From: Agromyces italicus DSM 16388
GTDB taxonomy: Bacteria; Actinomycetota; Actinomycetes; Actinomycetales; Microbacteriaceae
Assembly: GCF_000421545.1 (NCBI RefSeq)
Contig: NZ_ATXF01000011.1
Span: 1-64,000 of the forward strand
Reading direction: 5' to 3'
DNA length: 64,000 nucleotides
The translations under genes and the position numbers were made by a program. Positions 20,281-37,598 of this stretch are shown piece by piece (the first letter of the stretch is position 1; each line of letters starts with the position of its first letter). The notes beneath the pieces were generated by a model. The model was given only the letters and a program-made list of their open reading frames with translations, had not been told where the DNA came from and searched no databases.

Positions 20281-20937
20281 TCAGGCCGAGAAGTACGGGC
20301 TCGACGCGTTGTCGAGGATGCGCCGCATGCCCTGCATCCAGTTGGCCTTGAGCGCGATCTGTGCGCCCGGAACGTCGCCGGCCTCCAGGAATTCGGCGAT
20401 CGCGGCGTGCTCGGCCGCGACGCGTTCGATCATCACGTCGTTCGGCACGAGCAGCGATTCGTAGCGGTGGAACGATCCGCGCAGACTCGCGATCACGTCG
20501 AGCAGCCGCCGATTCGGGCACGCCGAGAGCATGATTCCGTGCCACTCGTCGTCCTTCGTCACGACGAGGGCGTGCTCGACGAGTTCTTGCTGGAAGTCGG
20601 CAGCGATGGTGACGAGCCGCGCACCGATGTCACGGAGTTCGTCGATTGGACTGAGCTCGAGGGCGAGGCCTTCCAGGTTCGCCATCACCGGCGCGAGGTC
20701 TTCGAACTCGCTCGCGCTGAGCGGGACGAACCTGAACCCCTTGCCGTTCTCGCTCTCGATCTGGCCTTCGCTCTCGAGGGCGATGAGGGCCTCGCGCAAG
20801 GGGGTGCGGCTGACGCCGAGCTCGGCGGCGAGCTGCACCTCGTTGATGCCCTCGCCGGGTTGTACTGCGCCAGTGCGCATGCGTGCGAGCAGCTCTTCGC
20901 GGACCTGTGAGCGCAGGTTCCTGCGTTCGATCGCCAT
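20281..20937 (-). CDS. GntR-family regulator, FadR/FCD subfamily
   Basis: The 218-residue repressor-like protein has an N-terminal winged helix (RRNLRSQVREELLARMRTG, then AAELGVSRTPLREALIALESEG, residues about 5-70) and a helical FCD ligand-binding domain with scattered His/Asp metal-ligand candidates. It is divergent from the SDR gene at 21057. A TGTATACA palindrome in the intergenic region is a likely operator. ATG 20937 follows GGAGGG. A ligand such as a sugar acid is typical for the FCD class but not shown. Confidence 0.87.
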   Translation of the reverse strand: MAIERRNLRSQVREELLARMRTGAVQPGEGINEVQLAAELGVSRTPLREALIALESEGQIESENGKGFRFVPLSASEFEDLAPVMANLEGLALELSPIDELRDIGARLVTIAADFQQELVEHALVVTKDDEWHGIMLSACPNRRLLDVIASLRGSFHRYESLLVPNDVMIERVAAEHAAIAEFLEAGDVPGAQIALKANWMQGMRRILDNASSPYFSA

Positions 20938-21028
20938 GTATTCGCCCTCCGGAGGGTTCGGCCGTTCGGCCGTCGCGGCAAGCCTAGGACGAGTGGGCCG
21001 TGACCGGCTCGAGCGCGGTCTCAAGTAC

Positions 21029-21036
21029 TGTATACA
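21029..21036. promoter_or_regulatory. TGTATACA palindrome, candidate GntR operator
   Basis: CTGTATACAA around 21028-21037 is nearly a perfect palindrome of the TTGTATACAA kind expected for FadR-type GntR proteins. It lies between the divergent GntR and SDR genes, 20 nt before the SDR start, and may overlap its -10 region (TATACA). Confidence 0.5.
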
Positions 21037-21056
21037 AAATGCCGAAGGAGAAAGCC

Positions 21057-21815
21057 ATGCGCCTTGAGAACAAGCAGGCCATCGTCACCGGCGGGGCGGG
21101 CGGCATCGGCCGCGCGACCTCGCTCGCACTCGCTGCCGAGGGCGCCGCCGTCGCGGTCGTCGACCTGAACGCCGAGGCCGCCGAGCGGATCGCCTCAGAG
21201 ATTCGCGAGGCGGGCGGCACCGCCATCGCGATCGGGGCGGATGTCGCGAGCGAGCCCGACATCGAACGCGTCGTGCAGACCGTCGTCACCGAGTTCGGGG
21301 GCGTGAACGTCGTCTTCAACAATGCGGGCATCATCCGTCGCACGACCGCGGTCGAGACGACCGTCGAGGAGTGGGACCGCGTGTTCGGCGTGAACGTGCG
21401 CTCGATCTTCCTCATGTGCAAGCACGTCGTGCCGATCATGGAGGCGGCGGGCGGCGGCTCGATCGTCAACACGGGCTCGGGCTAGGGCCTCAAGGGCGGA
21501 GGGCAGGCGATCTCGTACTGCGCGTCGAAGGGCGCCGTCGTCAACATGACCCGTGCGCTCGCGATCGACCACGGGCCGCAGGGCATCCGGGTGAACTCGG
21601 TGAACCCGGGCGATGTGAACACGGGGATGCTGCGCGACGAGGCCCGCCAGCTCGGCCAGGCCGAGGACGGGTTCCTCGCCGAGGCGGCCGACCGGCCGCT
21701 GCGCCGCATGGGCGAGCCCCGCGAGATCGCAGCGGCGGTCGTGTGGCTCGCGAGCGACGAGTCGAGCTACGTGACGGGCTCGGCCCTCGTCGTCGACGGC
21801 GGCGGCATCGCGTAG
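21057..21815 (+). pseudogene. Short-chain dehydrogenase/reductase interrupted by an in-frame TAG
   Basis: The frame runs through a classical SDR: TGGAGGIG cofactor site (residues about 11-18), NNAG motif (about 88), then SIVNTGSG, a TAG at 21483-21485, and directly in the same frame GLKGGGQAISYCASKGAVV. That continuation contains the catalytic YxxxK and the C-terminal GSALVVDGGG motif. Without the stop it would be a complete 252-residue enzyme similar to gluconate or glucose dehydrogenases. Trp (TGG) would fit the TAG position, so a single G-to-A change is likely. The first part alone lacks the active-site Tyr and Lys. AAGGAG precedes ATG 21057. Readthrough or a sequencing error cannot be excluded. 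Confidence 0.85.
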
Positions 21816-21820
21816 GCGCC

Positions 21821-21908
21821 GCACCCCGCGCGCACCCCGCACGCACCCCGCGCGCACCCCGCGCGCACCCCGCGCGCACCCCGCGCGCACCCCGCGCGCA
21901 CCCCGCGC
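21821..21908 (+). repeat. 11-bp tandem repeat, eight copies
   Basis: GCACCCCGCGC is repeated eight times without interruption, starting 6 bp after the SDR stop codon. Only the second copy differs, ending AC instead of GC. The unit length is not a multiple of three and the array is non-coding. It is a likely length-variable locus. Confidence 0.9.
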
Positions 21909-21934
21909 CGCCGCCACGCCCTTTTGCGGGCCGA

Positions 21935-21950
21935 CGCCGGTTCTCCGGCG
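21935..21950. terminator. Small GC hairpin between SDR and RidA genes
   Basis: CGCCGG-TTCT-CCGGCG forms a 6-bp stem with a 4-nt loop between convergent genes. Further on (about 21990-22020) are short CACGGGGCAGG-like direct repeats. Confidence 0.4.
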
Positions 21951-22023
21951 GATGGGAACTATCGTGGTCCGGCGAAAGGTCGTGACGACACGGGGCAGGG
22001 GGGCACGGGGCACGGGGCAGGTC

Positions 22024-22407
22024 TCAGGGCTGCGGGATCGCGGCGACGACGTCGATCTCGACGAGGATGTTCGCGAGGCGCGAGCCGACCGTGGTGCGCA
22101 CGGGGTACGGCTCGGTGAAGAACTCGGCGTAGGCCTCGTTGTACTCCGCGAAGTCGGCGAGGTCTTCGAGGTGCGCGGTGACCTTCACGACGTCGTCGTG
22201 GGTGAGGCCGTACTCGGCGAGCACGGCGCCGATGTTGCGCAGCACCTGGCGGGTCTGCTCTTTCACGCCGCCGTCGACGACGAGGCCCGTCGCGGGATCC
22301 TGCGGGCCGAAGCCCGCGGTGTACAGGAATCCGTTGGCGACGACGCCGTGGCTGTAGGGCCCTGCGGGCTTCGGCGCGTTCGAGAGCGTGACGGCGGTCT
22401 TGGACAT
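22024..22407 (-). CDS. RidA family enamine/imine deaminase
   Basis: The 127-residue protein has the RidA fold signature: NAPKPAGPYSHGVVANGFLYTAGFGPQDP, QTRQVLRNIGAVLAEYG, and the conserved Arg in EPYPVRTTV. RidA trimers hydrolyse reactive enamine/imine intermediates released by PLP-dependent deaminases. That fits the D-amino-acid deaminase-like gene in the same leftward group. ATG 22407 has a strong CAGGAGGA ribosome site; a longer frame from 22428 is less likely. It sits 120 bp downstream of the IclR gene. Confidence 0.92.
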   Translation of the reverse strand: MSKTAVTLSNAPKPAGPYSHGVVANGFLYTAGFGPQDPATGLVVDGGVKEQTRQVLRNIGAVLAEYGLTHDDVVKVTAHLEDLADFAEYNEAYAEFFTEPYPVRTTVGSRLANILVEIDVVAAIPQP

Positions 22408-22431
22408 GGGTTCCTCCTGGGTGTTCATTTC

Positions 22432-22478
22432 GGTGGGTCGAGGTGGGTCGAGGTGGTCGAGGTGGTCGAGGTGGTCGA
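22432..22478. repeat. GGTGGTCGA-type 9-10 bp tandem repeat before the RidA gene
   Basis: Five units of GGTGG(G)TCGA follow each other between the IclR and RidA genes, upstream of RidA in its direction of transcription. The unit resembles the GTCGAG ends of the dispersed repeat at 29882-29964. Confidence 0.7.
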
Positions 22479-22527
22479 ATCGTCTGCGGTCTCCTGGATG
22501 CCTCGGCGCCCGCCACGAGGCATCCGC

Positions 22528-23259
22528 TCAGCCGAGTTCGCGGGAGATGAGGTCGGCGGTCTCGCGCATGGCGGGCAGCTCGGCCTTGAGCCGATCGAGG
22601 TCGGCGACCATGCGGATCGCCGTGACGGAGAGCGCGCCGACGACGCCCATCGAACTGCGGATCGGCACGGCGATGCAGTTGACGAAGGCCTCGAACTCGC
22701 GGTCGTCGGTGGCGTAGCCGCGGGCCGCGGTCAGCGCGAGTTCGCGGTCGAGTCGTTCGCGCGAGTCGATCGTGAGCTCGGTGTAGCGCTGCCAGACGAC
22801 GCCGTCGAGCACCGCGTCGCGACCTGCCCGGTCGAGGTCGGCGAGGATCGCCTTGCCGACCGCGGAGCAGTAGGGGATCACGGCCCGGCCGATGCGGGAG
22901 TACATGCGGACGCCGGCCTCGTCGTCGGCCTTGTCCACGTAGACGATCGAGCGGTCCATGAGCGCGGCGAGGTGCACGGTGTTGCCCGTGCGTCGCTGCA
23001 GTCGGCGCACATGCTCGGCGCCCGCCTCGCGCAGGTCGAGCGAGTCGAGGGCCTGCTTCGAGAGGGCGGCGAGCCGGGTGCCGAGGGTGTACCGGCCCGA
23101 GCCGCGCTTGCGCACCCAGCCGACCTGTTCGAGCGCCTGGAGTTCGCGGAACATCGTCGAGCGATGCAGGCCGAACTCCTCGGCGAGTTCGGCGACGGTG
23201 CGCGGGTCGGTCGCGATCGCGTCGATGATGTGCGCGGCGCGCGTCACACTCTGCGACAT
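22528..23259 (-). CDS. IclR-family transcriptional regulator
   Basis: The 243-residue protein has an N-terminal winged helix (SVTRAAHIIDAIATDPRTVAELAEEFGLHRSTMFRELQALEQVGWV, residues 4-48) and the C-terminal GAF-like IclR effector domain with YCSAVGKAILADL and FVNCIAVPI. Members of the family sense small carboxylates such as sugar acids. It lies one base after the deacylase stop and in the same operon, so it probably regulates the surrounding catabolic genes. Palindromic motifs in the divergent region at 26342-26378 are candidate sites. Confidence 0.9.
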   Translation of the reverse strand: MSQSVTRAAHIIDAIATDPRTVAELAEEFGLHRSTMFRELQALEQVGWVRKRGSGRYTLGTRLAALSKQALDSLDLREAGAEHVRRLQRRTGNTVHLAALMDRSIVYVDKADDEAGVRMYSRIGRAVIPYCSAVGKAILADLDRAGRDAVLDGVVWQRYTELTIDSRERLDRELALTAARGYATDDREFEAFVNCIAVPIRSSMGVVGALSVTAIRMVADLDRLKAELPAMRETADLISRELG

Positions 23260-23260
23260 C

Positions 23261-25009
23261 TCAGCCCTCCCCTTCGTTTCTCAGGACGGCGTCATCGCTT
23301 CTCAGGACCGCATCGTGGTTTCTCGGGAGCGCAGAGGCGTTCGAGCGGTCTTCGGGCGTCGATCGTCCTGAGAAACCACCCCCGCCCGAGCCCCCCTCCC
23401 TGAGAAACGAGGCTGCCCGCCGGAGGGCCCGGCCCGGCGTCGCGCTGGTGAGGGTGCCGCCCGCGAGCACCGGCACGCCGGCGACGAACACGTCGTCGAT
23501 GCCGGCGGCGAGCCCGAGCGGCGATGCGTAGCTCGCGCCAGGGCCGACGCGCGCCGGGTCGACGAGCACCAGGTCGGCGACGGCTCCTTCGCGCACGAAG
23601 CCCCGGTCGCCGAGCCCGAACCGGCGCACCGCGCGTCCCGAGACCAGCGCGGAGGCGTTCGCCCAGTCGAGTGCGCGCTGCTCGCTGACGAGGAGCGAGA
23701 GGTATCTCGCGAACGTCCCGCGCGCCCGCGGGTGCGGGTGCCTGCCGAGGAAGATGCCGTCGGAGCCGCCGATCGCCTCCGGCGCCGACAGGATCGACGC
23801 GAGCTCGGCGTCGCTGCGCTCGTGCTGCACGGCCATCACCACGTTGACCTCGAGCCGCGAGCCGACGAGCACATCGAGGGCGAAGTCGATCGCATCGCTC
23901 CCGGCGCGCGAGGCGCCCTCGGCCAGGGTGAGCCCGTGCGCCCAGTCGTACTCGGGCGCGGCGACGTGCGCGAGGGTCAGCATCGAGGGCCAGTCGGGCC
24001 CCAGGCTGGCGTAGCCCGTGATCGTCGGGAACCAGTCGGTGCGCAGCCGTTCCCGCTCGACGGGATCGGCGAGCACGGCGAGCACCTCGGCGGCGGGGCG
24101 CACCGTGAGCGCGGCGGGCAGGATCGGCATCGCGAGGATCGAGCAGCCCCGGGTGTACGGGTAGGCGTCGAAGCTCGCGTCGACCCCCGCACGGGCGAGC
24201 CGGGCGAGTTCGCCCCGCACGATCGCGGGCGTCGCGTGGAAGTGCGACACGTGCACGCGCACCCCGCTCGCCGCGGCGATCGCCGCGATCTCATCGATGC
24301 CGGCGGCCGAGTTCTGCTCGTATCCGCCGCGCATGTGAGTCACGTAGACGCCGCCGGCCGCGGCGACGGGCGCAGCGAGTGCCGCGAGTTCTGCGGCGTC
24401 GGCGAAGGCGCCGGGCACGTAGTCGAGCCCCGTCGAGAGTCCGACGGCGCCGTCTTCGAGGCCGGATGCCACGAGCCCGCGCATCTCGTCGAGCTGGGCC
24501 TCGGTCGGGGCGTCGGTCGAGCGACCCATGACGGCGAAGCGCACGGTTCCGGCGGGCACGAGCGTCGCGACGTTGAGCGGTGTGGTGCCGTCGTAGCCGG
24601 CGAGGAGGGCGCCGAGGCCGCCGCCCGAGTAGTGCGGGTGAGTTCCGTTGATCGCGGCGAAGTACTCGGTGCCGTAGCCGCCGTCGCCGGGGGCGAAGCC
24701 CACGCCGTCCTGCCCGCCGATGACGGTCGTGACGCCCTGGCGCAGCAGCGCGAGCTGCACCTCGGGGTCGAACACGGCGGCGTCGGCGTGCGAGTGGGCG
24801 TCGATGAATCCGGGCATGAGCAGGCGCCCGCCGGCATCGACCACGTGTGCGGGTTGAGGAGCACCCGACGAAGGAGGATGCGTCTCGAAACCGCCGCCAC
24901 CGGCCGGCGCGATCCGTGAGATCCGCCCGGCGTCGAGCCGGACGTCGTGGCGGCCCGGCCGCTCGCCGGTCTCGTCGACGATGCGTGCGTTCGTGATCAG
25001 CACGTTCAT
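23261..25009 (-). CDS. N-acyl-D-amino-acid deacylase (amidohydrolase family)
   Basis: The 582-residue metalloenzyme removes the N-acyl group from a D-amino acid or, in this context perhaps, from N-acetyl-D-glucosaminate. It shows the HxH site (PGFIDAHSHAD, about residue 67), the HVSHFH strand (about 250), the VTHMRGGYEQNS segment and a late GSDG. These are hallmarks of D-aminoacylases. ATG 25009 has GAGG upstream, 8 bp after the deaminase. The last 40 or so residues are a low-complexity tail encoded by TTTCTCAGGA repeats and lie outside the normal family end. IclR follows by one base. Confidence 0.85.
   Translation of the reverse strand: MNVLITNARIVDETGERPGRHDVRLDAGRISRIAPAGGGGFETHPPSSGAPQPAHVVDAGGRLLMPGFIDAHSHADAAVFDPEVQLALLRQGVTTVIGGQDGVGFAPGDGGYGTEYFAAINGTHPHYSGGGLGALLAGYDGTTPLNVATLVPAGTVRFAVMGRSTDAPTEAQLDEMRGLVASGLEDGAVGLSTGLDYVPGAFADAAELAALAAPVAAAGGVYVTHMRGGYEQNSAAGIDEIAAIAAASGVRVHVSHFHATPAIVRGELARLARAGVDASFDAYPYTRGCSILAMPILPAALTVRPAAEVLAVLADPVERERLRTDWFPTITGYASLGPDWPSMLTLAHVAAPEYDWAHGLTLAEGASRAGSDAIDFALDVLVGSRLEVNVVMAVQHERSDAELASILSAPEAIGGSDGIFLGRHPHPRARGTFARYLSLLVSEQRALDWANASALVSGRAVRRFGLGDRGFVREGAVADLVLVDPARVGPGASYASPLGLAAGIDDVFVAGVPVLAGGTLTSATPGRALRRAASFLREGGSGGGGFSGRSTPEDRSNASALPRNHDAVLRSDDAVLRNEGEG
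23275..23411. repeat. Five copies of a TTTCTCAGGA-type motif in both orientations
   Basis: GTTTCTCAGGACG (23275-23288), GCTTCTCAGGACC (about 23297) and GTTTCTCGGGAGC (about 23318) point one way. CGTCCTGAGAAAC (about 23364-23376) and CCCTGAGAAACG (about 23398-23410) point the other. Spacing of the first three is 21-23 bp, about two DNA turns. The array codes the tail of the deacylase and lies just upstream of the IclR gene. Confidence 0.75.
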
Positions 25010-25017
25010 GGGGTGCC

Positions 25018-26322
25018 TCAGAACCTCGTGTGCACGAGGTCGACGACGAGGTCGCTCCCGGCGTGCTCGACGACGGGGATCCAGCGCCATTTGTCGAACG
25101 CGGTGCAGGGGTGCGAGAGTCCGAGCGCGACCACCTCGCCGACGGCGACGGGCAGGGCGGCTCCTGGGGCGTCGGCACGCAGGTAGGCGTGCTGGTCGTT
25201 CACGGCGGTCACGGATGCCTCGGCGAGCGGCCGCCCGTCGGCGCCGAGTTCGCTCGCGACGGCGAGCGGCACCGGCAGCCCTTCGTCGTACGGCAGGTCG
25301 CGCTTGCCGCCGTCGAGGAGGGCGAGCCCGGGCTCGGGGTGCGAGACGACGCGGGTGTAGCCGCGCATCGCCGGGGTGAGTTGGCGGTGGATGGGGGAGA
25401 TGCCCCGGTAGAAGCCGTCGTCGTGCACGAGCGACGCGCCCGAGCGCAGCACCCAGCGGGTGTCGCCGCGGCCGGCGCCGCTCTCGATCTCGGGGGCGAA
25501 GACGTCGGCGACGAGGTCGAGGTAGGCGCTGCCGCCCGCGGTCACGACGAGCGGGCCGTCGGCGGGGTCGGCGAGGGTGCGAACGGCGCCGTGCAGTTCG
25601 ACGAGGTCGGCGAGGTAGTCGCGCACGGCCGCGACCGCGACCGAGGAACGGTCGTGCCCGAGGCTGCCCTCGTAGCCGGCGACGCCCGCCAGGCGCAGCA
25701 CGGGCGAGTCGGCGATGCGCCGGGCGATGCCGACGGCCTCATCGATCCCGCGAGCACCGGTTCGGCCGCCGCCGGCGCCGAGCTCGACGAGCACGGCGAT
25801 CGGGCGGGGGAGGCCGGGGCCCCCGGAGGCGGTCGCGGTCGCGAGGCCGCGCTCCATCGCCTCGATCGTCTCGATCGAGTCGGCCCACGACCAGAACTCG
25901 AACTCGGGGTCGGCGTGTTCGCCGGCGATCCACGCGAGCGCGTCGGGGGCGACGAGGGCGTTCGCGAGCATGATCGTGCGCACGCCGAAGCCGCGCGCGG
26001 TGCGCACCTGGCCGGGGGTCGCGAGGGTGAGACCGGTCGCGCCGCCGCCGAGCTGGAGGCGCCAGAGCGCCGGGGCCATCGTCGTCTTGCCGTGCGGCAT
26101 GAGCTCGAGCCCGCGTTCGTCGCACCAGTGTTGGATCGTCTCGGCGTTGTGCTCGAGGGCCTCGCGATCGAGGGCGAGGAGCGGGGTCCAGAACTCGCCG
26201 AGCCGCGGCGCGGTGTCGAGGAACTCGCGGACGGTGAGCCCGGCCGCACGCGCGGGCAGCCCCTTGTCGCCCTCGCTGAGGCGGGTGTCGGCGGTCTCGG
26301 CGAGCGGGGCGAGGCGTGACAT
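25018..26322 (-). CDS. D-amino-acid deaminase / D-serine dehydratase-like PLP enzyme (DSD1 family)
   Basis: The 434-residue protein has an alanine racemase-type barrel with the PLP lysine in LELMPHGKTTMAPAL (about residue 75). A C-terminal domain carries the metal-binding H-x-C of LSHPCTAFDKWRW (about residue 405), as in zinc-dependent D-serine dehydratases and D-threonine aldolase relatives. It should eliminate ammonia from a beta-hydroxy D-amino acid. D-glucosaminate, which would yield 2-keto-3-deoxygluconate, is an attractive substrate because KDG kinase and KDPG aldolase genes lie next to it. First gene of the leftward operon. Confidence 0.83.
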   Translation of the reverse strand: MSRLAPLAETADTRLSEGDKGLPARAAGLTVREFLDTAPRLGEFWTPLLALDREALEHNAETIQHWCDERGLELMPHGKTTMAPALWRLQLGGGATGLTLATPGQVRTARGFGVRTIMLANALVAPDALAWIAGEHADPEFEFWSWADSIETIEAMERGLATATASGGPGLPRPIAVLVELGAGGGRTGARGIDEAVGIARRIADSPVLRLAGVAGYEGSLGHDRSSVAVAAVRDYLADLVELHGAVRTLADPADGPLVVTAGGSAYLDLVADVFAPEIESGAGRGDTRWVLRSGASLVHDDGFYRGISPIHRQLTPAMRGYTRVVSHPEPGLALLDGGKRDLPYDEGLPVPLAVASELGADGRPLAEASVTAVNDQHAYLRADAPGAALPVAVGEVVALGLSHPCTAFDKWRWIPVVEHAGSDLVVDLVHTRF

Positions 26323-26341
26323 CCGAAGCTCACTTTCACTT

Positions 26342-26378
26342 GTTGCGTATTCTGCAACGCGGTTGCGCAGCAGTTGCA
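26342..26378. promoter_or_regulatory. Palindromic GTTGC/GCAAC cluster, candidate IclR operator
   Basis: The divergent region between the deaminase and KDG kinase genes contains GCAAC-GCG-GTTGC (26354-26366) plus GTTGC at 26342 and 26373. GTTGCGTATTCTGCAAC is a second, overlapping palindrome. It lies where one protein could control both directions. Confidence 0.55.
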
Positions 26379-26398
26379 CACCAGACAGCATAGGGCGG

Positions 26399-27361
26399 GT
26401 GACCACCGCCCCGCTGCCCGAGATCATCGCCGTCGGCGAGACGATGGCACTCGTGGTGCCCGCGCTCGCCGAACCGCTCGCCGGGGCCGTCGACTTCCAC
26501 CTCGACGCCGGCGGCGCCGAGTCGAACGTCGCCTCGCACCTGGCCGCACTCGGTCATGCCGCAGCCTGGGCGGGCCGGGTCGGCGACGATGCGCTCGGCC
26601 GGCGGCTCGTCGCGCAGATCGCCGAACGCGGGGTCGACACCCGCTACGTCGAGCGCGACCCCGAGGCGCCGACGGGGCTCTACGTCAAAGACCCGGGCAG
26701 CGGCGTGCAGTACTTCCGCGCCGGCTCCGCTGCCTCCAAGATGTCGCCCGAGTTCTTCGATGCCCTCCCGCTCGACGGCGTGCGCATCGTGCACCTCAGC
26801 GGCATCACCGCGGCGCTCTCGCGCTCGTGCGACGCGATGCTCGACGCCGCCGCACTGCGCGTCCGTTCGAGCGATGCGCTGCTCAGCTTCGATGTGAACC
26901 ACCGGGCGGCGCTCTGGCCGGGCGAGCCGGCCGATGCGCTCGAGCTCGCCACGGTGCGCCTCCTCGAGTTCGCCTCCCGCGCCGACCTCGTCTTCGTCGG
27001 ACTCGATGAGGCCGACCGGCTGTGGGGCACCGTGACCCCGGCGGAGGTGCGCGCGTTCCTGCCGGGGCCCGAACGTCTCGTCGTGAAGGACGGCGACGTC
27101 GGCGCGACCGAGTTCGTGCGCGGCCCGGGCGGCGTCGACGCGGTCGAGCAGGTCGCCGCGCACCGGGTCGAGGTCGTCGAGGTGGTCGGCGCCGGCGACG
27201 CGTTCGCCGCCGGATACCTCGGTGCCCTCCTCGACGGTCGCGACTCGGCCGAGCGGCTGCGCGCCGGCCATGACCGTGCGGTGCTCGTGCTCGGCGAGAC
27301 CAGCGACTTCCCGCGGGAACTTCGCGCTCCCCTGACCCGTCCCCAGCGAAAGGCCCCGTGA
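26399..27361 (+). CDS. kdgK: PfkB-family sugar kinase, probably 2-keto-3-deoxygluconate kinase
   Basis: The 320-residue ribokinase-fold enzyme starts VGETMALVVP and has AGGAESNVASHLAALG (sugar-binding), YFRAGSAASKM (a segment typical of KDG kinases) and the catalytic VVGAGDAFAAGYLGALL (about residue 263). It should make 2-keto-3-deoxy-6-phosphogluconate. Its GTG start has no ribosome site and only 7 nt separate it from CAGCAT, a weak -10 candidate, so it may be leaderless. It overlaps the aldolase gene by one base and is divergent from the deaminase. Confidence 0.88.
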   Translation: MTTAPLPEIIAVGETMALVVPALAEPLAGAVDFHLDAGGAESNVASHLAALGHAAAWAGRVGDDALGRRLVAQIAERGVDTRYVERDPEAPTGLYVKDPGSGVQYFRAGSAASKMSPEFFDALPLDGVRIVHLSGITAALSRSCDAMLDAAALRVRSSDALLSFDVNHRAALWPGEPADALELATVRLLEFASRADLVFVGLDEADRLWGTVTPAEVRAFLPGPERLVVKDGDVGATEFVRGPGGVDAVEQVAAHRVEVVEVVGAGDAFAAGYLGALLDGRDSAERLRAGHDRAVLVLGETSDFPRELRAPLTRPQRKAP

Positions 27362-27972
27362 TGACCACGATCGACAACGCCGCATTCGACACGCTGCTCG
27401 CGGGTCGCCCGCTGATGGCGATCTTCCGCGGCCTCGGGGTCGACCGAAGCGTCGCGCTGGCGCGACGGGCGTGGGAGCTCGGCATCGACGTGGTCGAGCT
27501 TCCGATCCAGTCGGGCGACGACGTCGAGGCGCTCGCCGCCGTCGCCGAAGCCGGTCGCGCCGAGGGCCGGGTCGTCGGTGCCGGCACCGTGGTCTCGGTG
27601 CGGCACGTCGAGCAGGCCCTCGCCGCAGGGGCGGCGTTCACCGTCAGCCCCGGGTTCGACGAGGCCGTCGTGCGCGCCTCGTTCGAGGCGGGTCTGCCGT
27701 CGCTGCCGGGCGTCGCGACGGCGAGCGAGGTGCAGCGGGCGATGTCGCTCGGCCTGACGTGGCTGAAGGCGTTTCCCGCCTCCCTGCTCGGTCCGGCGTG
27801 GTTCGGCGCGATGGCCGGCCCGTTCCCGGGGGCGCGCTTCGTCGCGACCGGTGGCATGGATGCCTCGAACGCGGGCGAGTTCCTCGCCCGCGGGGTGCGT
27901 ACGGTCGCGGTCGGCTCGGCCCTCGAGGACCCGGCGCAGCTGCCGGCGCTCGCGGCACTCCTCGCGCGCTGA
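27361..27972 (+). CDS. eda: KDPG/KHG aldolase
   Basis: The 203-residue class I aldolase splits 2-keto-3-deoxy-6-phosphogluconate into pyruvate and glyceraldehyde-3-phosphate. The fold is recognised by VVELPIQSGDD (in the early strand), VVGAGTVVS and the Schiff-base lysine in TWLKAFPASLLGP (about residue 137). ATG 27361 is preferred over GTG 27358 because AAAGG is better spaced from it. The start overlaps the kinase stop, so kdgK-eda is a coupled Entner-Doudoroff lower branch. A perfect hairpin ends the unit. Confidence 0.92.
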   Translation: MTTIDNAAFDTLLAGRPLMAIFRGLGVDRSVALARRAWELGIDVVELPIQSGDDVEALAAVAEAGRAEGRVVGAGTVVSVRHVEQALAAGAAFTVSPGFDEAVVRASFEAGLPSLPGVATASEVQRAMSLGLTWLKAFPASLLGPAWFGAMAGPFPGARFVATGGMDASNAGEFLARGVRTVAVGSALEDPAQLPALAALLAR

Positions 27973-27989
27973 GACGCGTCTCCGCACGG

Positions 27990-28015
27990 CCCCGGCAGGT
28001 GTCTTCCTGCCGGGG
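27990..28015 (+). terminator. Terminator-like hairpin after the aldolase gene
   Basis: CCCCGGCAGG and CCTGCCGGGG form a perfect 10-bp stem with a 6-nt loop, beginning 18 nt after the stop. TTG follows, not a long T-run. Confidence 0.75.
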
Positions 28016-28058
28016 TTGCGCCGTCGGCGCGGGCTCGAGACGAGGCATCCACGACGAA

Positions 28059-28101: not shown

Positions 28102-28185
28102 CTTCCAGTAACGCTCGCACCGAGTTCCTGCACGCGGCGTCACTGCTCTTCCCACGCAACGAAGCACGAGAGGAATGTCGGAACG

Positions 28186-29868: not shown

Positions 29869-29881
29869 GGCCGAGCCCGCA

Positions 29882-29964
29882 GTCGGTCGAGTAGGCGCGC
29901 AGCACCGTATCGAGGCCCGTCCCCGTGGTCTCGATACGGTCGCTCCGCTCCCTACTCGACCGAC
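29882..29964. repeat. Long imperfect inverted repeat with GTCGGTCGAGTAG arms
   Basis: Outer arms 29882-29894 and 29952-29964 are perfect over 13 bp. Inner arms CCGTATCGAG (29905-29914) and CTCGATACGG (29930-29939) are perfect over 10 bp. The element resembles dispersed GGTCTCGATACGG...CTACTCGACC repeats and is placed between the binding-protein and permease genes. It could form a stem that stabilises the upstream mRNA or ends part of the transcripts. Confidence 0.8.
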
Positions 29965-30008
29965 GACCCGACCTACCCGAGCAGAATCAGGGAAGCCGCC
30001 GAATCGCC

Positions 30009-31004
30009 ATGAAGTTCTATGCACGACGGATCACGTTCTACCTCGTGACCCTGTGGGCGACGATCTCGCTCAACTTCCTCCTGCCGAGGCTCATGCCCGG
30101 CAACCCGGCCGACATCATCATCGCGAAGATGCAGCGCCAGGGAGAGGTCTCCGACACCACGATCAGAAACATCCAGCTCATGCTCGGCACGGGCGGCGAC
30201 GAGCCCCTGTTGGAGCAGTACTTCGCGTACTGGGGCCGCCTCCTGCACGGCGACCTCGGCATCTCGGTGACGAAGTACCCGGCGCCGGTCGCCGAGCTCA
30301 TCGCGAGCGCTCTGCCATGGACGATCATCCTCGTGGGCGTCGCGACCGTCATCTCCTTCGTGCTCGGAATCCTCATCGGCGCATGGGTGGGGTGGAAGCG
30401 CGGTACCTGGGTCGATCACCTGGTGCCGTCGACCACGGTGCTGCAGTCGATCCCGTACTTCTGGCTCGCGCTGGTGCTCGTCGCGATCTTCGCCGTGAAC
30501 CTGCGCTGGTTCCCGATCGTCGGCGGCTACGACGTCTTCGACTTCCCGGCCGGCCCAGAGTGGAGCTGGGCGTTCTTCGTCGACGCCGTCGAGCACGCCA
30601 CGCTGCCCGCGATCACGATCGTGCTGAGCTCGGTCGGCGGCTGGCTCTTCGGCATGCGCAACATGATGGTGTCGACGCTCAGCGAGGACCACATCGTCAC
30701 CGCCGAGGCGAAGGGCCTGCGCCCGCGCCGCATCCTCACCGCGTACGCCGCCCGCAACGCCGCGATCCCCTCGATCGCCGGCTTCTCGATCACGCTCGGC
30801 TTCGTCGTCGCCGGATCCATCGTCATGGAGCAGGTGTTCACCTACCCGGGCGTCGGCAAGCTCATGTTCCAGGCCGTGCAGAACAACGACTACGCGCTCA
30901 TGCAGGGCGTGTTCCTCGTCATCACGATCACGGTGCTGGCCGCCAACTTCATCATGGACCTCGTCTACGGGTTCATCGACCCGAGGGCACGTCACAATGT
31001 CTGA
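30009..31004 (+). CDS. ABC transporter permease (DppB/OppB type)
   Basis: The 331-residue inner-membrane protein has six predicted helices, the N-terminal FYLVTLWATISLNFLLPRLMPGNP characteristic of OppB-type permeases, and the EAA loop near TAEAKGLRPRRILTAYAARNAAIPSI that contacts the ATPase. It forms the channel with the next permease. It overlaps that gene by 8 bp. ATG 30009 has only a poor ribosome site; the upstream inverted repeat separates it from the binding-protein gene by 140 bp. Confidence 0.92.
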   Translation: MKFYARRITFYLVTLWATISLNFLLPRLMPGNPADIIIAKMQRQGEVSDTTIRNIQLMLGTGGDEPLLEQYFAYWGRLLHGDLGISVTKYPAPVAELIASALPWTIILVGVATVISFVLGILIGAWVGWKRGTWVDHLVPSTTVLQSIPYFWLALVLVAIFAVNLRWFPIVGGYDVFDFPAGPEWSWAFFVDAVEHATLPAITIVLSSVGGWLFGMRNMMVSTLSEDHIVTAEAKGLRPRRILTAYAARNAAIPSIAGFSITLGFVVAGSIVMEQVFTYPGVGKLMFQAVQNNDYALMQGVFLVITITVLAANFIMDLVYGFIDPRARHNV

Positions 31005-32063
31005 AACCGAACTCACCGAGCGCGAACTGCACGACGTGCAGGTCGCGGAGGTCATCACGCCGCTGACGGTCGCGAGCGCCGCCGTCGAAGGGGCGGGGCA
31101 GCGGATGCCACGGCAGTCCTCGCGCCGGGGAATCCGCGCGCTGATGCCGCGCTGGTCGGGAAAGCTCGCGATCGGCCTCGGCCTGCTCACCGCGATCGTC
31201 GCCTTCGGCGTCGCCGGCCCCTGGTTCACCCAGGACCCGCGCGACAGCGACAACCCCTCACTTCAGCCGCCGTCGCCCGAGCACCTGCTCGGCACGACGA
31301 AGCTCGGCTACGACGTGCTCGCGCAGCTCGCGCAGGGCACCCAGGGCTCCCTCATGGTGGGGGTGATCGCGGGGCTCATCGCGCTCGGGCTCTCGATCGT
31401 GTTCGGCATCCTCGCGGGCTATCTCGGCGGGTGGGGCGACGAGACGCTGTCGCTCGTCACGAACATCATGCTCGTGATCCCGGGGCTGCCGCTCGTCATG
31501 GTCATCGCGACCTACTTCCCGGCGCGCAGCTGGCTGCTCGTGGCCTTCGTGCTCGGCATCACGAGCTGGGCCGGGTCGGCGGTGGTGCTGCGGGCGCAGA
31601 CCCGGTCGCTCCGCTCGCGCGACTACGTCTCGGCGGCCCGCGTCGCGGGTGAGCGCGCACCCCGCGTCATCCTCGTCGAGGTGCTGCCGAACCTGCTGCC
31701 GCTGCTCGCAGCCCAGTTCCTCTTCGCGATCATCTTCGCGATCCTCGGCGAGGCGGGGCTCTCCTACCTGGGGCTCGGCGCGACCGACTCGATCACCTGG
31801 GGCACCATCCTGAACGACGCGCAGACCGGGCAGGCCCTCGGCACGGGCGCCTGGTGGTGGTTCGTGCCGCCGGGGCTCCTGATCGCGCTGCTCGGCTGCG
31901 GGCTCGCGCTCATCAACTTCTCGATCGACGAGATCATCAATCCGAAGCTCCGCATCGCCCCCGAGAACGCGCGTCGTCAGCGCAAGGCCGCGAAGGCCGG
32001 GCGGGGCATCGCCGGCCCGGGGCTCCCGACCGCCACCACCACCACCGCAGAGGGGATCAGCGC

Positions 32064-32067
<4 letters not shown>
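30997..32067 (+). CDS. ABC transporter permease (DppC/OppC type)
   Basis: The 356-residue permease has a 60-residue cytosolic N-terminal extension (acidic, then Arg-rich), a first helix near residue 65, and an OppC domain with HLLGTTKLGYDVLAQLAQGTQGSL. The EAA loop is around SRDYVSAARVAGERAPRVILVEVLPNLLPLL. An Arg/Lys-rich tail follows IDEIINPKLR. It partners with the OppB-type protein and overlaps the ATPase gene by ATGA. Confidence 0.92.
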
Positions 32068-32941
<874 letters not shown>

Positions 32942-32945
<4 letters not shown>

Positions 32946-33823
32946 GCGCTACGATCATGCCGTCGGCGGATGCCACGGGCGAGGCCCGCGCGCAGGGGCA
33001 GGGCGGGTCGCTCGAGGCGCGGAACCTCGTGAAGGACTTCCGCCTGCGCAGCGGGCTGAAGGTCAGCATGCTGCACGCGGTGAAGGACATCTCGTTCACC
33101 GTCGAGGCGGGCAGGACGATCGCCCTGGTGGGCGAGTCGGGCTCGGGCAAGTCGACCATCGCGCGGATGCTGGCCAAGCTCGAGGCGCCGAGCTCCGGCG
33201 GCGTCTTCATCGACGGGGCGCCGAGCGGCAGCAGGGGCCGGGCCCTCGAGCGGTATCGCAGCGAGGTGCAGATGGTCTTCCAGGACCCGTTCGCCTCGTT
33301 GAACCCGTTCCACTCGATCTCGCACCACCTCGAGCGGCCGATCCGCCTGCACCACCCGGGGCTCGGTCGAGCCGAGGTCGCCTCCCGCGTCGAGGAGCTG
33401 CTCGAGCGCGTGCAGCTCGAACCCGCGACCCGGTACCTCGAGCGACGCCCGCACGAGCTCTCGGGCGGCCAGCGGCAGCGTGTCGCGATCGCCCGCGCCC
33501 TCGCGCCGGGGGCGCGGTTCATCATCGCCGACGAGCCGGTGTCGATGCTCGACGTCTCGATCCGGCTGGGCGTGCTGAACCTGCTCGCCGAGCTCCAGCG
33601 CGAGGCGCAGCTCGGGGTGCTCTACATCACGCACGACCTCGCGACGGCACGGCACTTCTCCGACGAGATCCTGGTGATGTACCGGGGTGACATCGTCGAG
33701 CGCGGGCCGGCCGATGAAGTCATCCTGAACCCGCAGCACGAATACACCATGCGGCTGCTCGAGGCCGCCGCCGACCCGGAACGGCACGGTGCGCTGCGCG
33801 ACGAGGTGCGGCGCGCCGAATGA
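32942..33823 (+). CDS. ABC transporter ATP-binding protein (OppF/DppF type)
   Basis: The 293-residue second ATPase has Walker A GESGSGKST (about residue 61), Q-loop QMVFQDPFASLNPFHSI, signature LSGGQRQRVAIARAL, Walker B FIIADEPVSMLD and switch ITHDL. It pairs with the OppD-type subunit. It ends the importer operon; the ROK gene downstream has its own AT-rich promoter 12 bp after the stop codon. Confidence 0.93.
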
Positions 33824-33834
33824 GCAGGATCTTT

Positions 33835-33861
33835 TTGGTAAATAACCTTTTCAGATAGGCT
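33835..33861 (+). promoter_or_regulatory. Promoter and possible operator of the ROK gene
   Basis: TTGGTA (33835-33840) and TAGGCT (33856-33861) are 15 bp apart. Between and over the -35 lies GGTAAATAACC, a short imperfect palindrome in an otherwise GC-rich setting. ROK repressors bind AT-rich palindromes, so autoregulation is likely. Confidence 0.5.
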
Positions 33862-33881
33862 GAGGCGTGGAGGGAGTCACG

Positions 33882-35039
33882 ATGAACCAGAGCGATGCCG
33901 GCACGCCGACCTGGTTGGCCGCGCACAACGACCGTGCGGCGTTCCGCCTGCTGCTCGAGCACGGCCCGCTCACCCGCAGCCAGCTCGGCGCGCAATCGGG
34001 GGTCTCGAAGCCCACCGCGGGCCAGATGATCACCCGGCTCGAACGGGTGGGGTTGATCGGCGAGGCGGGCGTCGTCTCGGGTGGGCGGGGCCCGAACGCC
34101 ATGAGCTACGGCGTGCGCACCGATCGGCTGACCGGCGTCGCCGTGAGCATCTCGGGCAGGGCGATCCACTCGGTCTTGGTCGACGCCGCCGACACCGACC
34201 ACCCCATCGTCGAACTCCCCGCGGGGGTCGACGGGCGCAGTCCCGAGGGCGACGTCGAGCGGGCCGTCGGAGCGGCGTGCGAGGCGGCCGGGGTCGATTT
34301 CGGCTCGGTCACGCTCGCCGCCGTCGGCGTGCAGGCCGCCGTGTTCGTCGAGGGCGACGAGCTGTCGCACACCGACACCCTGCCCGGCTGGCCCGCGGTC
34401 GGTGCCCGCCGACGCATCGAGGAAGCGCTCGGTCTCGACGTCGTGCTCGACAACGACGTCAACCTCGCCGCGATGGCCGAGCGCGCCACCGGTGTCGCCC
34501 AGGGCGCGTCGAGCTTCGTGCAGTTCTGGATCGGCGAGGGACTCGGCGTCGGCATCGTGCTCGGCGGTGTCGTGCACCGCGGCGCCTCGGGCGGCGCCGG
34601 TGAGATCGGCTACCTCGAGGTCGCGCGCAGCGCCGCACGGCTCGATCCAGCGGCGCACGACCTCACCGAGCTCCTCGGGGGGTGCGCCGTCGCCGAGCTG
34701 CTCGGCGCCGAGCCCGGCGAGCGCCTGGCCGAGGTGCTCCCGCGCCTCGCGGGAGACGAAGCCGCGCTCGACGCCGTGGCGGCACGCACGGCGCTCGCGA
34801 TCGAGCCGCTGCTGACCGTGCTCGACCCGGCGCTGGTCGTGCTCGGCGGGCCGACGGGCGTCGCCGGCGGCGAGCGGCTCGCCGCCCTCGTCGGCGAGCG
34901 GGTCGACACCGGCGCACACCCGAAGCTCGTCGTCGCCACGAGCGGCACCGGTGAGCAACCGGTGCTGCTCGGCGCCCGACAACTGCTCGTCGAGCAGATC
35001 CGCACGCGACTCGAGGCCGGCATCACCCCGGCTGCGTAA
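33882..35039 (+). CDS. ROK-family transcriptional repressor
   Basis: The 385-residue protein couples an N-terminal winged helix (AAFRLLLEHGPLTRSQLGAQSGVSKPTAGQMITRLERVGLI, residues about 19-60) with a ROK sugar-binding domain containing DNDVNLAAMAE and the signature GEGLGVGIVLGGVVHRGASGGAGEIG. The catalytic Asp of sugar kinases aligns near the DNDVN motif, but the HTH marks it as a regulator of the XylR/NagC kind. ATG 33882 follows GGAGGGA. It sits between the importer and the glycosidase/kinase genes and probably senses a sugar or amino sugar from this pathway. Confidence 0.9.
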   Translation: MNQSDAGTPTWLAAHNDRAAFRLLLEHGPLTRSQLGAQSGVSKPTAGQMITRLERVGLIGEAGVVSGGRGPNAMSYGVRTDRLTGVAVSISGRAIHSVLVDAADTDHPIVELPAGVDGRSPEGDVERAVGAACEAAGVDFGSVTLAAVGVQAAVFVEGDELSHTDTLPGWPAVGARRRIEEALGLDVVLDNDVNLAAMAERATGVAQGASSFVQFWIGEGLGVGIVLGGVVHRGASGGAGEIGYLEVARSAARLDPAAHDLTELLGGCAVAELLGAEPGERLAEVLPRLAGDEAALDAVAARTALAIEPLLTVLDPALVVLGGPTGVAGGERLAALVGERVDTGAHPKLVVATSGTGEQPVLLGARQLLVEQIRTRLEAGITPAA

Positions 35040-35226
35040 GCCGTCGCACCGGCCGGGGTGGGGCCGGCCGAGGCATCCCGACCGCCCGTCCCACTCCGAC
35101 GGACACCGGCCGCCCGGGCCATTCGGCCGAACCCGCGCGCGCCCGCCCGCGGCGCTCGACCGCGCGGCTCGACCGCGCCCGAAGACGCACGCACCACGCA
35201 CAATGCACCACACGAAATGAGGACCC

Positions 35227-36483
35227 ATGAAGCTCGCCATCGTCGGCGGTGGATCGACCTACACGCCCGAACTCATCGACGGCTTCGCGCGCCTCCGCGA
35301 CACGCTCCCGCTCGAGGAGATCCGTCTCGTCGACCCCGACGCCGAGCGGCTCACCCTCGTCGGCGGCATGGCCCGGCGCATGCTCGCGCACGCCGGCCAC
35401 CCGGCCCGGGTCATCGGCACGACCGAGCTCGTCGCGGGCGTCGACGACGTCGATGCGGTGCTCATCCAGCTGCGCGTCGGCGGGCAGGACGCCCGGCACG
35501 CCGACGAGACCTGGCCGCACGAGGTGCAGTGCATCGGGCAGGAGACGACCGGCCCCGGTGGCCTCGCGAAGGCCCTGCGCACCGTGCCGGTCGCGCTGCG
35601 CATCGCCGAGGCCGTGCGCGAGCATGCGAAGCCCGACGCCTGGATCGTCGACTTCACGAACCCCGTCGGCATCGTGACGCGGGCCCTCCTCGAACACGGG
35701 CATCGCGCGGTCGGGCTGTGCAACGTCGCCATCGGGTTCCAGCGGCGCTACGCGAAGCTCTTCGGCGTCGGGCACGACGAGGTGCAGCTCGGTCATGTCG
35801 GCCTCAACCACCTGACGTGGGAGCGCAGCGTGACGGTCGGCGGCGAAGACAAGCTGCCGGGCCTCCTCGCCGACCATCTCGACACCCTCGCGGGCGAGGT
35901 GCACCTCGCGCCCGAACTGCTCATGCAGCTCGGCGTCGTGCCCTCGTACTACCTGCGCTACTACTACGCCCACGACGAGGTGCTGCGCGAGCAGCTCGCC
36001 GAGCCGAGCCGCGCCGAGGCGGTGCGCGCGATCGAGCGCGAGCTGCTCGACGTCTACGCCGACGAGTCTCGGCACGAGAAGCCCGCGGCGCTCGACGGCC
36101 GCGGCGGGGCGTTCTACTCGGAGGCGGCCATCGAGTTGCTCGCCGCCATGCAGGGCGGCGTCGACCGGGCTCGCGTGGTCAACCTCCGAAACGATGGCGT
36201 GCTGCCGTTCCTCCCGGACGACCACGTCATCGAGGTGCCGGCCGTGTTCCGCGACGGGGGATTCGTCGCGGAACCGGTCGCACCGCTCGCGAGCGAGCTG
36301 GCTGGGCTCATCGCGGCGGTCGCCGGGTACGAGCGGCTCGCCCTCGACGCGGCGGTGCACGGCGGTCGCGACCGGGTGCTGCGGGCGATGCGCGCGCACC
36401 CGCTCGTGCTGCAGCACGAGCGGGCCGAGCGCCTGACCGATCTGCTGATGGCCGAGAACGCGCGCTTCCTGGAGTGGGCGTGA
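35227..36483 (+). CDS. Glycoside hydrolase family 4 (6-phospho-beta-glucosidase-like)
   Basis: The 418-residue enzyme has the NAD site AIVGGGSTYTPELIDG (residues 4-19), the metal-binding cysteine C165 in LCNVAIG and H195 in VGLNHLTW, plus the DFTNP loop. GH4 enzymes cut glycosides by transient oxidation at C3 with NAD and Mn. The sequence type is closest to 6-phospho-beta-glucosidases, although no phosphotransferase system is present here, so a non-phosphorylated or kinase-phosphorylated disaccharide is possible. Its stop overlaps the BadF-type kinase start (GTGA). The 187 bp before it are GC-rich without clear signals. Confidence 0.9.
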   Translation: MKLAIVGGGSTYTPELIDGFARLRDTLPLEEIRLVDPDAERLTLVGGMARRMLAHAGHPARVIGTTELVAGVDDVDAVLIQLRVGGQDARHADETWPHEVQCIGQETTGPGGLAKALRTVPVALRIAEAVREHAKPDAWIVDFTNPVGIVTRALLEHGHRAVGLCNVAIGFQRRYAKLFGVGHDEVQLGHVGLNHLTWERSVTVGGEDKLPGLLADHLDTLAGEVHLAPELLMQLGVVPSYYLRYYYAHDEVLREQLAEPSRAEAVRAIERELLDVYADESRHEKPAALDGRGGAFYSEAAIELLAAMQGGVDRARVVNLRNDGVLPFLPDDHVIEVPAVFRDGGFVAEPVAPLASELAGLIAAVAGYERLALDAAVHGGRDRVLRAMRAHPLVLQHERAERLTDLLMAENARFLEWA

Positions 36484-37598
36484 CCGGCGCGATCGAGGCG
36501 GCCGAGCTGAACGATCTGCCCGGCGCCCCCGGTCCGCCCCTCGCGCCCGGCATCCCCGGTACGCGCGCGCAGGTCTCCTCGGCGAGCCCTGTGGTGGTGG
36601 CGGTCGACGGCGGCGGTTCGAAGACCGACGCCGTCGCCCTGACCCTCGACGGCGAACTCGTCGCGTATGCACGTGCGTCGGGGGCCAGCCCGCACTTCGA
36701 GGGACTCGACGCCTCCGTCGCGCTCGTCGACGGGATCGTACGCGAGGTCGCGGGGGAGCACGCGGTGATGCACGCCGGCCTCTACCTCTCAGGACTCGAC
36801 CTCGCCGTCGAGATCGAGCAGTACATCGCGGCGATCTCGGGCTTCGCGTGGTCGACGGGCGCCGTCGTCGCCAACGACCTCTACGCGCTCCTCCGTGCCG
36901 GCACCGACGCGCCCGACGCGGTCGCGATCGTCTGCGGCACCGGCGTCAACGCGATCGGCCTCCGCGCCGACGGCACGACCGTGCGCTTCCCCTCGCTCGG
37001 CCCGCTCTCGGGCGATTGGGGCGGCGGCGCGGGCCTCGGCGAGGCGGCGCTCTGGCACGCCGCGCGCGCCGTCGACGGTCGCGGGCCGGCGACGCTGCTC
37101 GTCGACGAGATCGTGCGCCGGCTCGGCGTCGCCTCGGTCGGTGAACTGATCGAGGCGATCCACTTCGGCCGGCGGGATGCCTCGGAGCTGACCTCGTTCG
37201 CCCCGGCGATCTTCGCGGCGGCCGCGGAGGGCGACGCCGTCGCCGTCTCGCTCGTCGACCGGCAGGCCGAGGAGCTCGCGGCGTTCGCCAGAGCGAGCCT
37301 CACCCGGCTCGAACTGCTCGACCGCGAGGTGCCCGTCGTGCTCGGCGGCGGAATCGCCCGTGCAGGCGACGAACGCCTGCTCCGTGGCATCCGGGAGCGT
37401 CTCGCGGATGCTGCCCCGCTCGCGCGACTCTCGATCGTCGAGGCCGCTCCGGTGGTCGGCGCGGCGCTGCTCGCGCTCGACGCGGTGGGTGCCGGGGCGA
37501 CCGCGCTCGCGCGGGCGCGCGCCGAAGTCGAGGCCACGGCGTCGGCGGGTGGGCGTACGCTCACATCATGGTCATCCCGCAGCGGTTCTCACTCGTGA
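36480..37598 (+). CDS. BadF/BadG/BcrA-type kinase, N-acetylglucosamine/glucosamine kinase-like
   Basis: The 372-residue ASKHA-fold protein starts after a 35-residue flexible N-terminus. The phosphate site VAVDGGGSKTDAVAL is near residues 38-52, VVANDLYALLRAG near 128, CGTGVNAIG near 150 and VVLGGGIARAGDE near 285. Close relatives include eukaryotic GlcNAc kinase and the glucosamine kinase of Vibrio chitin operons. It is coupled to the GH4 gene by GTGA. Its last 10 codons overlap the VOC gene by 31 bp. Confidence 0.85.
   Translation: MTGAIEAAELNDLPGAPGPPLAPGIPGTRAQVSSASPVVVAVDGGGSKTDAVALTLDGELVAYARASGASPHFEGLDASVALVDGIVREVAGEHAVMHAGLYLSGLDLAVEIEQYIAAISGFAWSTGAVVANDLYALLRAGTDAPDAVAIVCGTGVNAIGLRADGTTVRFPSLGPLSGDWGGGAGLGEAALWHAARAVDGRGPATLLVDEIVRRLGVASVGELIEAIHFGRRDASELTSFAPAIFAAAAEGDAVAVSLVDRQAEELAAFARASLTRLELLDREVPVVLGGGIARAGDERLLRGIRERLADAAPLARLSIVEAAPVVGAALLALDAVGAGATALARARAEVEATASAGGRTLTSWSSRSGSHS

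Follow-up and report, generated by a model that had tools for sequence, protein, structure and literature searches.

The window, a stretch of 64,000 nucleotides from Agromyces italicus DSM 16388 (positions 1 to 64,000 of contig NZ_ATXF01000011.1; genome of 3.73 Mb in 12 contigs), holds a locus formed by two gene units. Unit 1 (22024-27972) comprises the genes for a RidA-family protein, an IclR-type regulator, a deacylase and a DSD1-type deaminase (DSD), with those for KdgK and Eda divergently oriented, and unit 2 (28186-37598) those for an ATP-binding cassette (ABC) importer, a ROK regulator, a GH4 glycosidase and a BadF-type kinase. Unit 1 probably serves the catabolism of N-acyl-D-hexosaminates under the control of IclR, with N-acetyl-D-glucosaminate (GlcNAc1A) and/or D-glucosaminate as the most likely substrates, and unit 2 is probably a ROK-controlled cassette for the import and cleavage of amino-sugar beta-glycosides. 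In the proposed pathway, the deacylase would take off the acyl group of the N-acyl-D-hexosaminate, and DSD, a pyridoxal 5'-phosphate (PLP) enzyme, would eliminate ammonia to yield 2-keto-3-deoxygluconate (KDG), the formation of which we infer because KdgK and Eda are present. KDG would then be phosphorylated by KdgK and the product split by Eda into pyruvate and glyceraldehyde-3-phosphate, with RidA probably clearing an enamine/imine intermediate.

The genes were identified from their open frames, from scans with family models (Pfam and NCBIfam/TIGR) and from relatives in the PDB. The genes listed in the preliminary description of this DNA (deacylase, DSD1-type enzyme, RidA, KdgK, Eda, importer, ROK, GH4 and BadF) are real open frames of the families named there, at about the positions it gave:

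22024-22407, minus strand: RidA-family protein, by family the counterpart of OngD from Pseudoalteromonas prydzensis (PF01042, 9e-34; TIGR00004 above its cut-off)
22528-23259, minus strand: IclR/KdgR-type regulator (PF01614, PF09339; best NCBIfam model KdgR NF011671 with 149 bits, under its cut-off of 275)
23261-25009, minus strand: putative N-acyl-D-hexosaminate deacylase, relative of D-aminoacylases (PF07969; PDB relatives 3gip, 1m7j and PpOngB 9kb1)
25018-26322, minus strand: DSD1-type PLP deaminase/dehydratase, predicted to convert D-glucosaminate into KDG (PF14031; PDB 3gwq)
26323-26398, no strand: divergent promoter region; the palindrome GTTGCGTATTCTGCAAC occupies 26342-26358, and a TTGC half-site after it extends to 26366
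26399-27361, plus strand: KDG kinase KdgK of the PfkB family, with a GTG start (PF00294; top models are KDG/2-keto-3-deoxygalactonate (KDGal) kinases, under their cut-offs)
27361-27972, plus strand: KDPG/KHG aldolase Eda (PF01081; TIGR01182 with 141 bits, cut-off 156)
28186-29868, plus strand: family 5 solute-binding lipoprotein of the ABC importer (PF00496; best PDB relatives 6lzu and 1zty)
30009-31004 and 30997-32067, plus strand: two Opp/Dpp-type permeases (the second from Opp/Dpp models, the first as an open frame matched in relatives)
32064-32945 and 32942-33823, plus strand: two ABC ATPases (open frames and family models)
33882-35039, plus strand: ROK-family regulator, probably governing the import cassette (PF00480)
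35227-36483, plus strand: GH4 glycosidase of the 6-phospho-beta-glucosidase group (PF02056, PF11975; PDB 5c3m, 1s6y, 1up6)
36480-37598, plus strand: BadF-type sugar kinase (PF01869; NagK model NF046058 with 66 bits, under its cut-off of 370)
20281-20937: GntR-type gene, with which the locus of the preliminary description began, left out of both units

The IclR gene, located between those for RidA and the deacylase, had been overlooked in that description. In the whole genome, PF01081 has no match other than the window Eda. Besides PF14031, DSD holds the motifs PHGKTTM and SHPCT, invariant in nine aligned proteins, which we take to be the PLP-lysine motif and the H-x-C motif, in agreement with a fold III PLP enzyme.

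The conservation of unit 1 was examined in three sets of loci. The genus set contains 24 mapped loci including the window, the 23 others being chosen among the best matches, 20 from the genus survey (which detected DSD at E 1e-60 or better in 35 of 60 genomes) and three from the loci taken for the family. For the family, where a DSD homologue (E 1e-30 or better) was detected in 80 of 249 genomes, 20 kb were taken around 39 DSD matches in other genomes and one paralogue in the same genome, and the comparison was made on 37 loci outside the genus set, this paralogue included. The actinobacterial set consists of the best 80 of at least 594 relatives, and shares some loci with the other two. Another 20 loci, from other genera and centred on GH4 (and hence not random), served for comparison. 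A Tsukamurella protein annotated as gluconate:H+ symporter served as the query for gluconate-type symporters.

Unit 1 proved to be conserved in the Microbacteriaceae, the family in which the preliminary description had proposed to survey the neighbourhood. In the genus set, the deacylase and RidA are each found in 23 of the 24 loci and IclR in 20; KdgK and Eda, also present in 20, lie beside the deaminase there and in many other Actinomycetota beyond what is expected by chance. Near the DSD gene of the 80 actinobacterial loci, a deacylase is encoded in 67, RidA in 63, IclR in 51, KdgK in 51, Eda in 48 and a gluconate-type symporter in 34. KdgK or Eda occurs in 56 of these loci (and in 16/37 of the family set), and all six core genes appear together in 37, with 15 genera carrying the complete set according to a hand count. 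The GH4-centred loci contain KdgK in none, Eda in one, the symporter in none and the deacylase in one. Two main gene orders were observed. In the Microbacteriaceae type, DSD, deacylase, IclR and RidA are mostly on one strand, with KdgK-Eda divergent; in most other loci of the actinobacterial set, DSD-deacylase-Eda are on one strand, with KdgK, IclR and RidA divergent, and the symporter often follows Eda or the deacylase. In one Agromyces genome (L033), KdgK and Eda are fused into a single protein of 555 residues.

Other genes were also noted around the module. A small protein is encoded after Eda in seven family loci (L036, L037, L038, L042, L044, L045 and L052), the L037 copy being a rhodanese domain according to Pfam. 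What reads by eye as an MFS-type transporter lies beside the module in L054, L042, L220-L222, L253, L260 and L271, Microbacteriaceae loci with no match to the gluconate-type symporter. In Agromyces sp. Root81 (L168 / L215), DSD faces the ABC-GH4-BadF cassette, and RidA, IclR, deacylase, KdgK and Eda were not detected, as if lost.

The promoters of unit 1 share a palindrome. GTTGC-N7-GCAAC, with at least nine of its ten fixed positions, is present in 43 of the 48 divergent promoters of the actinobacterial set (mean of 0.9 in 10 shuffles) and in 27 of 35 DSD-KdgK regions of the genus and family sets (mean of 0.65 in 20 shuffles), sets which overlap by few loci; two of these 35 regions are not divergent promoters. 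In the window, the extended site has a single match, free of mismatches, at 26342-26366, with 0.05 matches expected when up to three mismatches are allowed, which bears out the operator region earlier proposed to be shared by the divergent genes. The IclR protein is predicted to bind this palindrome. No second site was detected in the window at the ABC cassette, even with up to three mismatches. Genome-wide, the window site is the only mismatch-free match, followed by two with two mismatches and ten with three; these 13 matches equal the 13 of a reversed control. The best other palindromes (C6:352443 and C5:612506) were rejected as regulon members, one being inside a gene call and the other in a stretch without gene calls.

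Deacylation followed by deamination to KDG and processing by KdgK and Eda, as had been anticipated, fits the genes present and the degree to which they are conserved. It also fits the frequent symporter, which points to a free sugar acid, and the amino-sugar genes that accompany the module in some relatives. The latter were found near DSD in nine of the 37 family loci: GH20, NagA and NagB in three, NagA and NagB in one, NagB in one, NagB with GH4 and BadF in one, GH4 and BadF in one, and NamZ with MurQ in two, the names NagA and MurQ being a reading of amidohydrolase and SIS matches. The background in the 20 GH4-centred loci is NagA 1, NagB 0 and GH20 1. In L053 and L071, lactonase genes adjoin the module, and L053 also has a short-chain dehydrogenase/reductase (SDR) gene between deacylase and DSD, neighbours that would fit the oxidation of an amino sugar and the subsequent opening of the lactone.

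The two loci in which NamZ and MurQ-like genes for cell-wall sugars adjoin the module belong to different genera (L045, 4123-7271; L063, 2842-7943). In the A. italicus genome itself, C4:332603 was considered as NagB and discarded, as it belongs, by eye, to a zwf-opcA-pgl cluster and is probably a 6-phosphogluconolactonase; a weaker match, C7:185290, is a NagB candidate.

A galacto configuration of the acid, with N-acetyl-D-galactosaminate giving KDGal and 2-keto-3-deoxy-6-phosphogalactonate (KDPGal), is quite unlikely. In its favour, the best models for the kinase are bifunctional KDG/KDGal kinases, a KDPGal aldolase model ranks second for the aldolase (121 bits), and the aldolase carries VELPIQS, presumably similar to galacto-type aldolases, where L046, L050, L051 and L056 have VEFTFTT or VELTYTT. 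However, the best model for the aldolase is eda (141 bits), and the loci that have amino-sugar genes near DSD seem to hold those of a glucosamine or muramic type. Klebsiella, too, has a kinase and an aldolase of galacto type annotated next to its ong genes, so that such a likeness does not discriminate between both forms.

The ong cluster is the characterized system closest in logic to unit 1. In P. prydzensis, OngB removes the acetyl group from GlcNAc1A, OngC forms KDG from the product by deamination, and KDG is phosphorylated by KdgK, the RidA protein OngD being also required for growth (PMC9537276). In the OngB structure, Cys97 is a zinc ligand, Lys254 a ligand of the carboxylate, and Ser292 and Gln298 are specificity residues, and the equivalents of Cys97 and Lys254 are strictly conserved in D-aminoacylases of the AfDam/BbDam type (PMC12017989). 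The window deacylase belongs to the same sequence family as these D-aminoacylases and OngB deacetylases (1m7j, 3gip, 9kb1). It was aligned with other actinobacterial deacylases, 88 in total (23 from the genus set and 65 of the 67 from the actinobacterial set, shorter ones being dropped; several of the 65 are from strains of one species). The metal histidines His222 and His252, together with Tyr285, Asp368 and Arg379, are kept in 88/88, and His68 and His70 in 87, with one gap. Unlike OngB and the D-aminoacylases, position 97 is Asp in 86 proteins (one gap, one Thr), position 226 is Tyr instead of Glu in all 88, position 254 is Thr in 48, His in 36, Val in three and Cys in one, with Lys in none, and position 298 is hydrophobic in all, with Gln in none. 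Ser292 is retained in the window and 23/23 genus proteins, but in only 5/65 of the others. The window protein thus has Asp (its residue 101) with both histidines at the zinc site, His (its residue 258) in place of Lys254, and Ser292 without Gln298. Judging from the alignment, the catalytic frame of the deacylase is preserved, but the metal ligand and the substrate pocket are different; by its context it may act like OngB, yet by sequence it is not an OngB. An Asp at the Cys97 position is also found in D-aminoacylases encoded on haloarchaeal plasmids (L086 and L087), which retain Lys254; one of them is near sulfatase, PIG-L deacetylase and GH20 genes, and the other near RidA and IclR.

The substrate had been proposed to arise from chitin oxidised by lytic polysaccharide monooxygenases (LPMOs), and a locus representing an actinobacterial branch of LPMO-driven chitin oxidation would share the enzyme logic of ong as described in PMC9537276. 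The genome holds three GH18 and four GH20 matches (one GH20 being a short piece), and the solute-binding protein is related to 1zty, by name chitin oligosaccharide binding, as well as to 6lzu, by name peptide-binding. Nevertheless, AA10 LPMOs, which accompany ong, have no match in this genome, and were detected in three of 31 genus genomes and five of 249 family genomes. Three of these five hold DSD, an association that is not significant (p = 0.19), and the residues that mark OngB are absent from the deacylase. An own LPMO as the source was consequently not sustained, and this explanation of the locus is hardly probable. The GH18 and GH20 matches, together with a sugar ABC importer seen by eye on C7 with GH20 and ROK, suggest that ordinary chitobiose use may be served elsewhere.

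Unit 2 is a separable cassette, ABC-ROK-GH4-BadF, with its own promoter motif. The 20 GH4-centred loci of other genera contain BadF in all, ROK in 19, an importer with a family 1 binding protein in 15 and a family 5 importer in three, with DSD in one. The earlier description of a single integrated locus with an importer does not hold, since the cassette is separable, carries its own motif and lacks a nearby DSD in 19/20 of these loci. Both GH4 domains (N and C) are present in the glycosidase, as in the 6-phospho-beta-glucosidases 5c3m, 1s6y and 1up6, its closest solved relatives, as in a putative 6-phospho-beta-glycosidase; unlike them, it is encoded alongside an ABC importer and a kinase of the BadF type. 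The cassette would import a small, probably amino-sugar-containing beta-glycoside, to be phosphorylated by BadF and split by GH4; we guess that this is an amino-sugar disaccharide ending in an acid. The position of unit 2 next to unit 1 in Agromyces is probably explained by unit 1 using one of the products of unit 2 as a substrate. DSD occurs in 29 of 39 GH4 genomes and 51 of 210 others (one-sided p = 3.9e-9, not corrected for phylogeny), and outside the genus GH4 and DSD are less than 9 kb apart in 3 of 26 genomes (p = 2.8e-4, with a distance chosen after seeing the data; the 23 unlinked pairs were read by eye, many being on different contigs). This co-occurrence and proximity suggest that both units were brought together, with unit 2 releasing something that unit 1 can use.

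Two neighbouring genes were not assigned to either unit. An SDR gene (21060-21818, plus strand) was dropped as a pathway member, as it has an in-frame stop near 21483-21485 and is matched in 7/23 of the other genus loci; seven Agromyces relatives hold an open frame of 251 codons. The BadF frame overlaps by about 30 bases the start (37568) of the next frame, which runs to 38008; this reads by eye as VOC-type with no NCBIfam match and, with Mqo, is a common neighbour in Agromyces loci.

Several observations weigh against the proposed roles of unit 1 and unit 2. Concerning unit 1, KdgK and Eda are both missing near DSD in 24 of the 80 actinobacterial loci and in 21 of the 37 family loci, and KdgK is missing in 4 of the 24 genus loci, three of which retain RidA-deacylase-DSD. 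OngC is also active on D-serine and D-threonine (PMC9537276), so that the substrate cannot be read from the family of the deaminase. Similarly, the lack of Lys254 and Gln298 in 88/88 deacylases implies that the N-acyl substrate may differ, and this genome holds no GntP match that would account for the import of the monomer. Some of these points would suit a degradation of N-acyl-D-amino acids (such as those of D-serine and D-threonine), with KdgK and Eda as chance neighbours or serving another sugar acid, as would the annotation of relatives as D-aminoacylase and as alanine racemase/amino acid deaminase. A plasmid of Comamonas odontotermitis (L084), with DSD, a MurR/RpiR regulator, a D-aminoacylase, a peptide-type ABC importer and no annotated sugar kinase, is a possible D-amino-acid counterpart. 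Such a function is, however, highly improbable for the window. KdgK or Eda lies near DSD in 56/80 loci compared to 1/20 GH4-centred ones, two gene orders share one palindrome, and the gluconate-type symporter is frequent. Moreover, a second locus of the same genome (L068) looks more like a D-amino-acid route, which makes this function less likely for unit 1: it holds a paralogue of DSD (40%), peptide-type ABC genes and a deacylase that retains the classical Cys97 and Lys254, with no KdgK or Eda match. The statement in the preliminary description that simple D-amino-acid catabolism would not explain the KDG enzymes is therefore supported for KdgK and Eda.

Concerning the relation between both units, the promoters of unit 2 in the genus carry a conserved motif that resembles one before the ROK gene and differs from that of unit 1 (by eye, with no statistics), and in five of the 24 genus loci unit 1 includes KdgK while GH4 is absent from the neighbourhood. 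Together with the rarity of DSD around GH4 in other genera, this would agree with two functionally unrelated units, joined by position only in Agromyces. This relationship is rather unlikely, given that KdgK and GH4 are both found in 15/24 genus loci, with either ABC type (L159), that GH4-BadF is also near DSD outside the genus (G191, G201, G016 and Glaciibacter L251), and that the overlap of GH4 and DSD genomes is above expectation.

Beyond the reading of unit 1 as an N-acyl-D-hexosaminate module, a broader and more tentative proposal would be that Actinomycetota assembled, independently of the proteobacterial ong cluster, a widespread IclR-controlled N-acyl-hexosaminate route. The deacylase of this route would represent a novel subfamily, in which Asp is a metal ligand and the carboxylate site has been remodelled. 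The substrate would come not from own LPMOs but from another oxidation of amino sugars (by a dehydrogenase and a lactonase, to which the neighbours in two loci point) or from cell-wall sugars (in view of NamZ and MurQ in two loci), and would often be imported as the free acid by gluconate-type symporters. Were this so, Actinomycetota would widely possess a route similar to ong but made up of non-orthologous enzymes, hidden by the annotation of its members as D-aminoacylase and alanine racemase. The defined palindrome, the list of genes and the unusual metal site of the deacylase are all directly testable.

No report of an actinobacterial GlcNAc1A pathway was found in the literature searched, which covered few subscription papers. 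The holders of the complete pathway shown in PMC9537276 are Gammaproteobacteria and one Betaproteobacterium, and KdgA is also present in the ong cluster of Vibrio, Klebsiella and Serratia. In an Aeromonas study, the ong genes were sought and the route could not be confirmed there (PMC11653859). For natronoarchaea using chitin, a different oxidative route has been proposed, in which glucosaminate and then glucosaminate-6-phosphate are intermediates and genes of the IclR and RutC types take part (PMC12343721). As references for ong, the clusters of P. shioyasakiensis (L081, annotated), Klebsiella (L075, annotated except for the deacylase) and Vibrio (L073, from a sequence match) were used. Compared to the P. 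shioyasakiensis proteins, the window deacylase shows 29% identity and the window deaminase 31%, and in the trees the proteobacterial deacylases and deaminases group apart from the window proteins, with a Comamonas protein beside them (Klebsiella being in the deaminase tree only). These trees indicate that the enzymes of unit 1 are not orthologous to OngB and OngC. The idea of an actinobacterial version of the marine pathway accordingly stands for the gene set and its logic, and not for the deacylase and deaminase, which fall outside the OngB and OngC groups, with the OngB residues replaced.

Unit 1 and the ong cluster of P. prydzensis and other Proteobacteria have in common a deaminase, a regulator, a deacylase, RidA and KdgK, with the same reaction logic, and the deacylase, DSD-type deaminase, RidA and KDG kinase are co-located in the window within 22024-27361. 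However, the ong regulator, OngR, is of the MurR/RpiR type and that of unit 1 of the IclR type; no GH20, TonB receptor or SSS symporter gene was seen in unit 1, unlike in ong, and a gluconate-type symporter accompanies the module in many other Actinomycetota. The known system acting on phosphorylated glucosaminate likewise yields a 2-keto-3-deoxy sugar-acid product from glucosaminate, although the separate KDG kinase of unit 1 suggests that here, unlike in that system, phosphorylation would follow deamination.

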